A stretch of 64,000 bases of DNA. Origin: Halosimplex halophilum (lineage in GTDB: Archaea > Halobacteriota > Halobacteria > Halobacteriales > Haloarculaceae). Under the pieces are notes generated by a model. The model saw nothing but the letters and a program-made list of their open reading frames with translations. It was not told the origin of the DNA and made no database searches. Location of the stretch: assembly GCF_004698125.1 (NCBI RefSeq), contig NZ_SRHV01000005.1, positions 248,001 to 312,000 on the forward strand. The letters are read 5' to 3'. How positions within the stretch are numbered: position 1 is the stretch's first letter; each line of letters begins with the position of its first letter. Position numbers and translations under genes: made by a program. Shown piece by piece: positions 15,935 through 22,780 of this stretch.

Positions 15935-15958
15935 GTATCGCGATATGCGATTTATTAC
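15935..15958 (+). repeat. 24-bp inverted repeat, left copy
   Basis: GTATCGCGATATGCGATTTA and the following TTAC match, in inverted orientation and with two mismatches, bases 18606-18629. It contains the perfect palindrome TATCGCGATA followed by an AT-rich TATA-like GATTTATTA. Confidence 0.7.
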
Positions 15959-18605: not shown

Positions 18606-18629
18606 GGAATAAATCACATATCGCGATAC
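18606..18629 (-). repeat. 24-bp inverted repeat, right copy
   Basis: Reverse complement of the repeat at 15935-15958 with two mismatches. Both copies point inward, enclosing the Bat-type regulator and both hydrolases (2.7 kb). Confidence 0.7.
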
Positions 18630-18732
18630 GGATTGATGGTGAGTCGGCGATACGCGGTCGACGCCCGGCTGTCGTCTGTCTTTTGGGTTGCCGAACGCTT
18701 CAAATGTGACCGCTCGAAAACAGTCTGTATCC

Positions 18733-19908
18733 GTGCCACGACCGGAGACCATCGAACGGATACGGGAAGCGGAGACCGAAGCGGAGCGAATCCTTGAGGA
18801 CGCCGAGGCCGACCGCGAGGAGATGCTCGAAGCGGCCTCGGATCGGGCGGACAGAATCCGGGCGGAGATCCGCCAGCGGGCCGAACGCCGGAGCGAGGAG
18901 CGACTCGCCGAGGCCCGCACGGAGATCGAGGCCAAACGGGAAGCTATCCTCGAAGCGGGTCGGGCGGAGCGGAGAACGCTCGAAGAGCGAGCGACGGCGC
19001 GACGGGAGGATGTCGTCGGGTTCGTCGTCGATCAGGTGGCGGCCGCGATACGAGACGATGCCGACTACAGTCGCGGAGATATTCTCAGCGGGATGGACCT
19101 GTCAAATCGAACGTTCGATGATGTGAGATGGTTCTACACGGACTGTTCGGGTGCCGATCTCACGGACGCGACACTCTCGGGAAGCGCCCTGGGCTGTGAC
19201 TTCGGGACGACGACGCTCACCGGGAGCGATCTCTCCGGGGCCAATTTTCGTTCGTGTGACTTCTCCGGAGCCGATCTCAGCGAGAGCGACCTGTCGGACG
19301 CGGTCCTGTCTTGGGCCTCCTTCGAAGACGCCTCGGCACCGGATGTCGACTTGAGGGGAGCGACGCTCACGGGCGCGGCGGGCGTTCGGGCCGACTTCAG
19401 CGGCGCGACGGCTGAACGGACCGTGGCCAAGCGAGCCGACTTCCGGGATGCCATTCTCGCAGATGGCGATTGGTCGCGGGCGTATCTGCCGAAATCGAAC
19501 TTATCGGGTGTCGATGCGGCCGATGTCGACTTCCACGACTCCGCCCTCCGCGGTGCGGACCTGTCCGGTGCCGACCTGTCCGGGGTCGACCTCTCGGGGG
19601 CGACACTACAGGGGGCGGACCTCGCTGGCGCGACGCTGACTGGTGCCGATCTTACCCACGCATCGCTCATCGAGGCCGACCTGACCGGGGCGAACCTCCG
19701 GGGGGCGGACTGTACGAGTACGCTCCTTCGGCGCGCGACGCTCCGCGAAGCGACGCTCGCCGACGTGACGTTCGCCGCCGGATACGACAGCCAGGGGACG
19801 AAGCGGCGTCCGTCGCTCCGGGGCGCCGACCTGACGGATGCAACACTCGACGGCACGGATCTATCGGCGGTCGAGACGGCTGACGCGACGTTCTCCGAAA
19901 CGCGGTGA
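18733..19908 (+). CDS. AhaH-like peripheral-stalk coiled coil fused to pentapeptide-repeat domain
   Basis: The protein has 391 residues from the GTG at 18733, chosen because it yields PRPETIERIREAE, the characteristic beginning of haloarchaeal A-type ATP synthase subunit H. Residues 1 to about 108 are an uninterrupted Glu/Arg/Ala-rich right-length coiled coil ending in VVGFVVDQVAAAIRD, closely resembling whole AhaH (about 105-110 residues). Residues about 118-388 then switch to pentapeptide repeats of the A-D/N-L-x-x type (for example GADLSGADLSGVDLSGATL), which fold as a right-handed quadrilateral beta-helix. I know of no such fusion. No other ATP synthase gene is near. The FtsZ-like reading frame follows 100 bp downstream on the same strand. 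Confidence 0.8.
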   Translation: MPRPETIERIREAETEAERILEDAEADREEMLEAASDRADRIRAEIRQRAERRSEERLAEARTEIEAKREAILEAGRAERRTLEERATARREDVVGFVVDQVAAAIRDDADYSRGDILSGMDLSNRTFDDVRWFYTDCSGADLTDATLSGSALGCDFGTTTLTGSDLSGANFRSCDFSGADLSESDLSDAVLSWASFEDASAPDVDLRGATLTGAAGVRADFSGATAERTVAKRADFRDAILADGDWSRAYLPKSNLSGVDAADVDFHDSALRGADLSGADLSGVDLSGATLQGADLAGATLTGADLTHASLIEADLTGANLRGADCTSTLLRRATLREATLADVTFAAGYDSQGTKRRPSLRGADLTDATLDGTDLSAVETADATFSETR

Positions 19909-20008
19909 GCCCTCGGGGGTGTCGAAGGTCACGGGGCGTTCCCTCGACAGACCGCCGCGGACCTGCTGACAACGGTACCTTGATGATCCGACTCCGCCAC
20001 GTGTCCCT

Positions 20009-21382
20009 ATGCCGAACGGACGCAGGCCCCATCATCAAGTGGCCTCTCTCACGGCCGTGGGTGTCGGCGAACGGGGTGTACGCGCCCTGGAGCGGTTCGC
20101 CGAGGAGTCGAGCGATGACGACCAGGTCACGGCTCGGTTCATCTGCGTGGACACGGCGGAAACGGCCGACTCGAGGACGGACCATTTCCAGTTCTGCCGG
20201 CTCGATGCTCCGGACTCCGGAGGGTCCGAGGCCGACTCCACGCCGCCGTACGCGGACTCGGTGAAGGCGACGGCGACGGACGGCCCGGGTCCGGCGCCGC
20301 TCGTCCGTCGCCGTCTCGACTCCCGCGCGAACTTCCTCCCGCTGTTCGAGCGTATCGAGTCGACGATGACGGACGGCGCGACACCGGACGCCGAGTGGAC
20401 GCGCTCTCCGGGCCACCTCAATCTGCTCGTCGGCGACCTGTCGGATCCGGCCGTGCGCGGCGTGGTGCCACTCGTCGCGAAGATGCTCGACGACGGGGCC
20501 GACGCCCTGTCGATGCCGACGCTCACGGGGGGGATGTTGCTCGCTCCGGTGGGCGCGGTCGCCGACGGCGAATCGATAGCTCCGTGATACCGCCGGACGT
20601 ACGTGGGCCTCCGGGAGGCGACGGCGCTCCTGACCGACCACGAGCCGAACGCCGAGCGCTCGCTGTCGGTCCGGCCCGGTGTCGTTCCGAACGATCGGAC
20701 GGAACTCGACCTCACGGAGCGACTGTTCGACCTGTTCGGGCTCGTCGGATACGATCCCGACCGCGAGTCTTCGACCGAGGTGTCGGCCTCGGTCGCGTCC
20801 GCTCTACGGGTGTTCGTGGACCTGCGGTTGACGATCACGAACGGCGGCGTCGAGGGATTCCCGGGGTCCGGAACGCCGGCGTCGACGACGAGAGGTGGCA
20901 GGGCGGCCGAGCGCGCGGATCCCGGAATGACATTCGTCTCGTGGATCGAGAGCCACCGGCGGGAGTCGCCGTCGCCGGACGACAGCGAGCGTCAGCTACC
21001 GGTCAAGTACGGACGTGCGCTCGCACCCGTCCCTGAAGATACTGCAGGCCACTGTGCCATCGGCGTATATCGTCTGGAAGAGGACCAAGCGGACAACAGG
21101 GGGTGGTCCGCCACGCGCGGAGACGAGCTGTCGGTCGAGACGCCCGGTCACTCGCTCGTCGAGGGAGACGAAGGGGTCGAACTGTGGCCGGCTTCATTCG
21201 CGTCTCGCGAAGAGCGTCACGTCTTCGTCCACCCCGACGTGGGCGCGTTCGACGTTTCGCCGTACGCCCGACTGCACGACCGATACGCTGACGACCTCCG
21301 CTCGCTCCTCGTCGGACTGGATATGTCGCCGCTTGCGTATCCCGAACTGGTTTCGATGGACGGAGACACGACAGCGCCGTGA
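20009..21382 (+). pseudogene. Divergent FtsZ/tubulin-like gene split by an in-frame TGA
   Basis: A single frame of 458 codons is interrupted only by TGA at 20585-20587 (codon 193). The first part (192 residues, ATG at 20009) and the second (a GTG at 20603 would give 259 residues) lie in the same phase, 15 bp apart, and the second has no convincing start. The first part resembles the N-terminal GTPase half of FtsZ: SLTAVGVGERGVRALERF aligns with the GxGGAGxN region, ARFICVDTAE with the FIAxNTD strand, and VVPLVAKMLDDGADALSMPT with the helix and strand after the T4 loop. The glycine-rich T4 loop itself (GGGTGTG) is replaced by DLSDPAVRG, so GTP binding is doubtful. Either a nonsense-inactivated gene or two separate polypeptides; family assignment is tentative. 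Confidence 0.5.
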
Positions 21383-21436
21383 CCGGAGAGGACACCCCGG
21401 ACCGGCCAATACCGTCGCGAGCGCGCAGCGGACTAG

Positions 21437-22780
21437 TCACAGCACGTCGAGAAACGCGTCGATAGCGCCGCTCTCGGGGTGGCAGTGGCAGTAGGTGCCG
21501 AGCGTCCGGTACTCGGTGAGGCCGTCGCGGCCGTCGGCGATGCCGTCTCCCCGTTTCACGTCGAACGCGAACCGGGCGTCCCCCGCGGGGTCGGCCGAGG
21601 AGTAGTGGAACTCGTGGCCGCGCCGGTGCTCGCCCGCCCCGGCGGTGAGCGTGTCCTCGCGGGCGCGCAGTTCCACGTGGTCGAGCGCCTGATACCGGTC
21701 GTGCATCGTCACGTCGGCCGGGAGGACGCCGGCCATCTCGTACGTCTCCCCGTCGATCGTCGTCAGCGACTCGGAGAGGGCCATCAGCCCGCCGCACTCG
21801 CCGAAGGCCGGGAGGCCGTCGGCGGCGCGGTCGGCCAGCGTGTCCAGGGCCGGCCCCGCCGCCAGGTCGGCGGCGTGGTTCTCGGGGTAGCCGCCGGGGA
21901 GGTAGACGCCGTCGCACGCCGGCAGGTCCTCGCCGTCGGCGGGCGCGAACGGGACGAGTTCCCCCCGGTCGCGGATCCGTTCGAGCGTCGCCGGGTAGAC
22001 GAACCGGAAGGCGTCGTCGCGCGCGACGGCGACGCGGGGGCGGTCGCCGTCGTCCGCCGTCGACTCCGCCTGCGCCGCCGCGCCGGTCGGCCGGTCGACC
22101 GCGGCCCCGGATTCGGGTTCGGTCGGTTCCCGGGCCACCTCGCGCAGGCGGTCGACGCGGAGGTGGTCCGCGGCGGCGTCCAGCGCCCTGTCGTCGAGCG
22201 GCGACTCCTCGCCCATGTGGAGGCCGAGGTGCCGCTCCGGAATTTCGAGGTCGTCGTCGGGCGCGATCCGCCCGAAGTAGTCGAGTTCGTCGGGCAGCGC
22301 CTCGCGGATCCCCTCGGCGTGGCGGCCGCCGTGGGCGCGCTGGGCGACCACGCCCGCCACGTCGATGTCGCGGCCGGCGCGGGCGGCGTACTCCCGGAAG
22401 CCCAGCGCCGTGGCCGCGACGCTCTCCATGCCGGCCTTCGCGTCGACGACGAGGACGACCGGGAGGTCGAGCGTCTCGGCGACCATCGCCGTCGATGACG
22501 CGTCGCCGTCGTAGAGGCCCATGACGCCCTCGACGACGCAGAGGTCCCCCTCGCCGCGGCGGTAGTTGCGCCGGAGGCCCGCTTCGCCCTGGAGCCAGCG
22601 GTCGAGCGTCCGCGAGGGGCGACCGGCGACCCGCTCGTGGTGGCTCGGGTCGATGAAGTCCGGGCCGGCCTTGGCGGATTGCACGTCGAGGCCCTCGCGC
22701 TCCAGCGCGTGGATCGTCGCGAGCGTCGCGACCGTCTTCCCGACGCCGGAGCTCGTCCCGGCGAGGACGAATCCATTCAC
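21437..22780 (-). CDS. cbiA: Cobyrinate a,c-diamide synthase
   Basis: The protein has 447 residues. It has an N-terminal P-loop (GTSSGVGKTV, residues 8-17) of the dethiobiotin-synthetase/CobB fold and a C-terminal class I glutamine amidotransferase domain with the catalytic Cys in PAFGECGGLMALSES and PGGYPEN as part of the oxyanion region. It amidates side chains a and c of cobyrinate using glutamine and ATP in cobalamin synthesis. An acidic linker of about 40 residues separates the domains. Its start overlaps the cbiE stop by 4 bp (ATGA), indicating translational coupling. Confidence 0.95.
   Translation of the reverse strand: MNGFVLAGTSSGVGKTVATLATIHALEREGLDVQSAKAGPDFIDPSHHERVAGRPSRTLDRWLQGEAGLRRNYRRGEGDLCVVEGVMGLYDGDASSTAMVAETLDLPVVLVVDAKAGMESVAATALGFREYAARAGRDIDVAGVVAQRAHGGRHAEGIREALPDELDYFGRIAPDDDLEIPERHLGLHMGEESPLDDRALDAAADHLRVDRLREVAREPTEPESGAAVDRPTGAAAQAESTADDGDRPRVAVARDDAFRFVYPATLERIRDRGELVPFAPADGEDLPACDGVYLPGGYPENHAADLAAGPALDTLADRAADGLPAFGECGGLMALSESLTTIDGETYEMAGVLPADVTMHDRYQALDHVELRAREDTLTAGAGEHRRGHEFHYSSADPAGDARFAFDVKRGDGIADGRDGLTEYRTLGTYCHCHPESGAIDAFLDVL

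Follow-up and report, generated by a model that had tools for sequence, protein, structure and literature searches.

The question raised by this locus is whether a subunit of the A-type ATP synthase has been joined to a pentapeptide-repeat rod in a single protein, and what such a protein would bind. The window (64,000 nt of Halosimplex halophilum DNA, contig NZ_SRHV01000005.1, positions 248,001 to 312,000) carries an uninterrupted open reading frame (ORF) from GTG at 18733 to TGA at 19906-19908, which encodes 391 aa. The gene and its parts are listed here, with positions counted from the first letter of the window.

18733..19908 (+): fusion gene of 391 aa, from GTG to TGA; continuous ORF with the GTG aligned with AhaH Met1
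18733..19056 (+): AhaH-like coiled-coil domain, residues 1-108; AhaH profile 107.5 bits, TIGR02926 3.3e-9, AlphaFold2 (AF2) helix
19057..19074 (+): junction, residues 109-114 (DADYSR); no AhaH or repeat match, low confidence in AF2
19075..19905 (+): pentapeptide-repeat beta-helix, residues 115-391; PF00805 1e-49, about 54 pentads (13-14 coils), Foldseek matches

Coiled coil, junction and rod in one gene

The fusion start VPRPETIERI aligns with MPRPEVLDRV of haloarchaeal AhaH, and the GTG falls opposite Met1. An alternative in-frame TTG at 18688, upstream of this GTG, found no support in the AhaH alignment. An AT-rich TTCAAAT is located about 30 bases 5' of the GTG, a position weakly suggestive of a nearly leaderless haloarchaeal transcript. 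The GC3 values of the coil and rod halves are 0.755 and 0.765 (0.92-0.96 in neighbour genes) and the codon usage values are 0.48 and 0.43 (0.70-0.85 in the neighbours). The same unusual codon usage in both halves indicates that they have shared a gene for some time or that their sources were similar. The earlier note had read coil and rod as one unbroken frame, and this was borne out: a frameshift or false join was ruled out by the continuous frame and by the matching GC3 and codon usage, and none was found when the junction at residues 108-118 was examined. The gene encodes an AhaH coil fused to a pentapeptide rod.

Coil residues 1-107 show 49% identity to the AtpH of the same genome (E 2.6e-17), and identity to haloarchaeal AhaH is 42-53%. 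The NCBIfam model TIGR02926 (AhaH) matched residues 7-89 with E 3.3e-9; the coil by itself scored 36.9 bits and the whole protein 33 bits, both below the equivalog cut-off of 48.5 bits; the Pfam V-ATPase_G models gave weak matches. On a haloarchaeal AhaH profile built from 45 sequences the coil scored 107.5 bits, the genome's own AtpH 152.8 and its own AtpE, also a coiled coil, 10.7. Shuffled coils (2000 of each type) reached at most 6.9 bits when shuffled plainly, 29.5 within mod-11 classes and 28.7 with the hydrophobic pattern kept, so that none of the 6000 exceeded 29.5 bits. A match caused by composition only was ruled out by these three shuffle types. Judged by the sequence comparisons, the coil is a true AhaH homologue. 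The first 108 residues had been described as a complete AhaH; the homology stands beyond composition, but where AhaH has its conserved C-terminal tail, FEEAVHAQT, the fusion has VAAAIRDDA and then the rod.

The hydrophobic periodicity of the coil peaks at 11/3 (hendecad), as in AhaH. Among the AhaH hydrophobic core columns, 27 of 29 are still hydrophobic, and in 21 of 29 the residue is the one found in most AhaH. Polarity is preserved in 43 of 47 polar surface columns, and 26 of the 35 columns with at least 90% conservation are retained. The AhaH-specific invariants R3, P4, E5, R57, L58, G76 and R80 are present. The net charge is -8 (AhaH, -16 to -31), with four acid-to-base changes at columns that are normally acidic in AhaH. 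In the AhaH tree the coil branch measures 1.17 changes per site, far above any AhaH, which suggests relaxed or changed constraint on this sequence. A recent duplication of the genome's own atpH was considered as the origin of the coil: a clade with the AhaH of the genus was not rejected (p-AU 0.16), but the long branch leaves its placement within AhaH loose. The single-sequence AlphaFold2 model predicts one helix at residues 4-108, with pLDDT of at least 90 at residues 11-80, and pLDDT falls below 50 across residues 101-116 in the junction region.

The rod matches PF00805 (Pfam Pentapeptide) with E 1e-49 and 166 bits (cut-off 20.2). The pentapeptide part had been put at about 270 residues; the repeats are confirmed and the figures are corrected to a start near residue 115 and a length of about 277 residues. 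Laid out from residue 115, it contains 54 pentads, 41 of which have a central Leu or Phe. The AF2 model of the rod is confident at residues ~281-350 and 361-380 and has pLDDT below 50 at 187-256 (mean for the whole protein, 68.9). Foldseek ranked pentapeptide proteins and designed beta-solenoids highest, although TM-scores across the full model were low. The fusion did not reach the family cut-offs for Qnr (74.6 bits against 240) or MfpA (43.9 against 360).

An accessory island and an extra AhaH copy

The fusion gene is found in an island of ~2.8 kb between two convergent genes, an alpha/beta hydrolase gene and a cbiA-like gene, together with two downstream ORFs.

18640..21438 (no strand): accessory island with the fusion and two downstream ORFs; ends approximate; empty site in sisters, lower GC and GC3
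20009..20587 (+): ORF1, orphan, 192 aa, possible island partner; no Pfam or NCBIfam match, 7-bit tubulin match
20603..21382 (+): ORF2, orphan, 259 aa; no Pfam match, same frame as ORF1

Island GC is 0.64-0.71 against 0.73-0.79 around it, and GC3 is 0.76-0.85 against 0.92-0.96. The fusion was not found in any of seven sister species. Five of them show an empty site: the hydrolase and cbiA-like matches are ~170-275 bases apart in G002, G003, G006 and G004, and a short gap separates them in G005. The G001 contig matched the downstream flank alone. In G007 the same slot holds a different insert of ~1.3 kb, whose protein, encoded at L080 904-1815 (minus strand), carries a Tat-like signal (SRRSVLKRVGA). 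These differing contents (empty, fusion island, G007 insert) indicate that the slot takes in variable genes, and the hydrolase/cbiA-like intergenic region looks like an insertion hotspot. No convincing direct repeats were found at the island ends.

A 20-base element, ATAAATC(G/A)CATATCGCGATA, is present at 15936-15955 (minus strand) and 18609-18628 (plus strand) in inverted orientation, downstream of an HTH_10 regulator gene and of the hydrolase gene; the pattern has only three sites genome-wide. The intergenic region of the sister species has a conserved, related element, CGCGATA.

ORF1 and ORF2 share a frame and are divided by one in-frame TGA (20585-20587); perhaps they are one broken gene of 457 codons. 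No homologues of either were found in 97 relatives, and the lone genome-contig match to ORF1, a Paracoccus protein, was rejected as a chance match. The ORF1 N-terminus has a weak, short Rossmann/tubulin/FtsZ resemblance (7 bits). Comparison with the genome's own tubulins did not help to decide whether ORF1/ORF2 may be a degenerate tubulin/FtsZ, and the structure model was uninformative (pLDDT 33). Two long frames of the same genome, L091 (C2:94691, 1128 aa) and L106 (C3:204445, 1068 aa), have Tubulin_2 (PF13809) N-termini.

The same two-domain protein was sought in other haloarchaea and beyond. Among 145 relatives every match was AhaH alone or pentapeptide alone. With residues 1-216 as query, no match in 146 family genomes extended beyond the AhaH end into the rod, and 391 class genomes yielded no second fusion. 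Genome contigs scanned by peptide patterns gave none either, in a scan sensitive to close relatives only; a distant second fusion could have escaped such scans. No fusion was found in viral contigs, plasmids or phages. PADLOC returned no defence match for the fusion, and its matches in PHROGs were confined to the repeats. No description of an AhaH-pentapeptide architecture was found in the open-access literature. The earlier note's view that the architecture is unusual holds, with no second case in the genomes searched.

The genuine atpH heads an A-type operon on contig C2, while the fusion lies elsewhere, in its island on C3. The operon order is H, I, a short stretch where small K is expected, E, C, F, A and B (names assigned from order and sequence), and AtpE is present in a single copy in the genome. 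The fusion is an extra, diverged AhaH paralogue alongside a complete atp operon. Across 391 haloarchaeal genomes, almost every one gave just one AhaH match. Four other genomes have two matches: in G321, G391 and G415 the additional one is an AtpE-like match ~3 kb from atpH, and in G361 there are two copies of ordinary length. In three genomes (G093, G108 and G120, the three searched in family f9) no AhaH match was found at E 1e-6, unlike nearly all other haloarchaea; AhaH is probably strongly diverged or lost in these genomes.

Possible partners of the coil

In A-ATPases, subunits E and G (H) pair in a right-handed hendecad coil that is anchored at subunit a and meets the catalytic head via a globular C-terminal part (PMC6131620). 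Our preferred reading, held tentatively, is that the first 108 residues of the fusion would still pair with subunit E in a right-handed coiled coil of the AhaH type, and that this pairing would hold the rod near the A3B3 head. As the genome has a single AtpE, the coil would share this subunit with the ATP synthase itself. This reading is favoured by the AhaH homology beyond composition, with 27 of 29 core and 43 of 47 surface columns and the 11/3 period kept, by the presence of a complete atp operon, atpH included, and of a single AtpE, and by the E/G coil geometry and contacts described in PMC6131620. It is disfavoured by the net charge of -8 with four acid-to-base changes, by the lost tail, which in AhaH adjoins the globular domain of E, and by the branch of 1.17, the position outside the atp operon and the absence from sister species. 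Docking of the fusion on the ATP-synthase stalk is plausible in that it is consistent with the kept AhaH core and the single AtpE. A more specific proposal, which we regard as doubtful, is that the fusion would replace AtpH in one peripheral stalk and add the rod at the catalytic head as an optional brake, tether or organiser.

The main rival is that the coil was co-opted as a handle in a role unrelated to ATP synthase, pairing with itself or with some other coiled-coil protein, with the rod as the working part. The coil would then dimerise or localise the rod, and the rod would bind a protein or mimic DNA, by analogy with MfpA and Qnr on gyrase. The changed surface charge and the lost tail fit this explanation at least as well as they fit AtpE pairing, and the gene is in an accessory island away from the atp genes. 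Of the pentapeptide proteins whose structures are solved, those understood best (MfpA, Qnr and AlbG) act on gyrase, and pentapeptide proteins are among the structural matches. However, the Qnr and MfpA model scores are far under their cut-offs, and the coil keeps the AhaH-specific invariants and the PRPE start, which go beyond the needs of a generic homodimeric coil and speak for AtpE pairing. We consider a co-opted handle possible but not probable.

It is unlikely that the gene is a chance fusion in a variable gene slot, weakly expressed or not expressed at all and with no lasting function. Such an origin would fit the single example across all searches, the long coil branch and the adjacent ORF1/ORF2, apparently broken by an in-frame stop; against it are 391 open codons, the clear hydrophobic core and the regularity of the repeats. 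The core was kept despite ~50% coil divergence, unlike neutral drift. A small island-borne system in which the fusion works together with the product of ORF1/ORF2, which might be a diverged tubulin-like protein, is quite improbable. The fusion and ORF1/ORF2 are on one strand in one island with similar GC3 and codon usage, and ORF1 has a weak Rossmann/tubulin-like start, but the tubulin match is 7 bits, no Pfam match was found, the model is uninformative, an in-frame TGA splits ORF1/ORF2 and ~100 bases separate the fusion from ORF1. Presence in one genome only is what an assembly or sequencing artefact that joined a piece of AhaH with a pentapeptide gene would leave, but such an artefact is scarcely credible here, as the frame is continuous, GC3 and codon usage match in both halves, the AhaH half is not copied from the genome's own atpH (49% identity) and the flanks are syntenic with sister species.

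A free extra AhaH copy on a rigid rod offers a ready test of whether a rotary ATPase can be given new modules by swapping its stator subunits. Should the coil not bind AtpE, the protein would instead exemplify the recruitment of a stator coil as a handle for dimerisation.

Comparison with known systems

The fusion shares with AhaH/AtpH (A-type ATP synthase subunit H, TIGR02926; G in V/A-ATPases) the start motif, the core, the invariants and the hendecad period. It differs from AhaH/AtpH in that its gene is outside the operon, the tail is lost, the coil is much less acidic and a rod of 277 residues is added. Its residues 115-391 are built from the repeat of the PF00805 proteins (e.g., HetL, MfpA, Qnr, AlbG and NP275/276), centred on Leu or Phe and with Ala at i-2. 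The fusion scores well under the cut-offs of the HetL, Qnr and MfpA models, and none of the solved pentapeptide relatives matched has an AhaH coil. The haloarchaeal pentapeptide proteins L007, L023 and L025 are of the same repeat type and lineage as the fusion, but their N-termini are Cys/His-rich (e.g., CGY...CCW...CAWH) and not AhaH, and the end of L023 is hydrophobic. L023 and L025 have in common the Cys/His motif CG(Y/V)...CC(W/Y)...C(A/L)WH, and the C-terminus of L023 consists of apparent membrane segments. Both domains of the fusion are already known; their combination is new and a single case.
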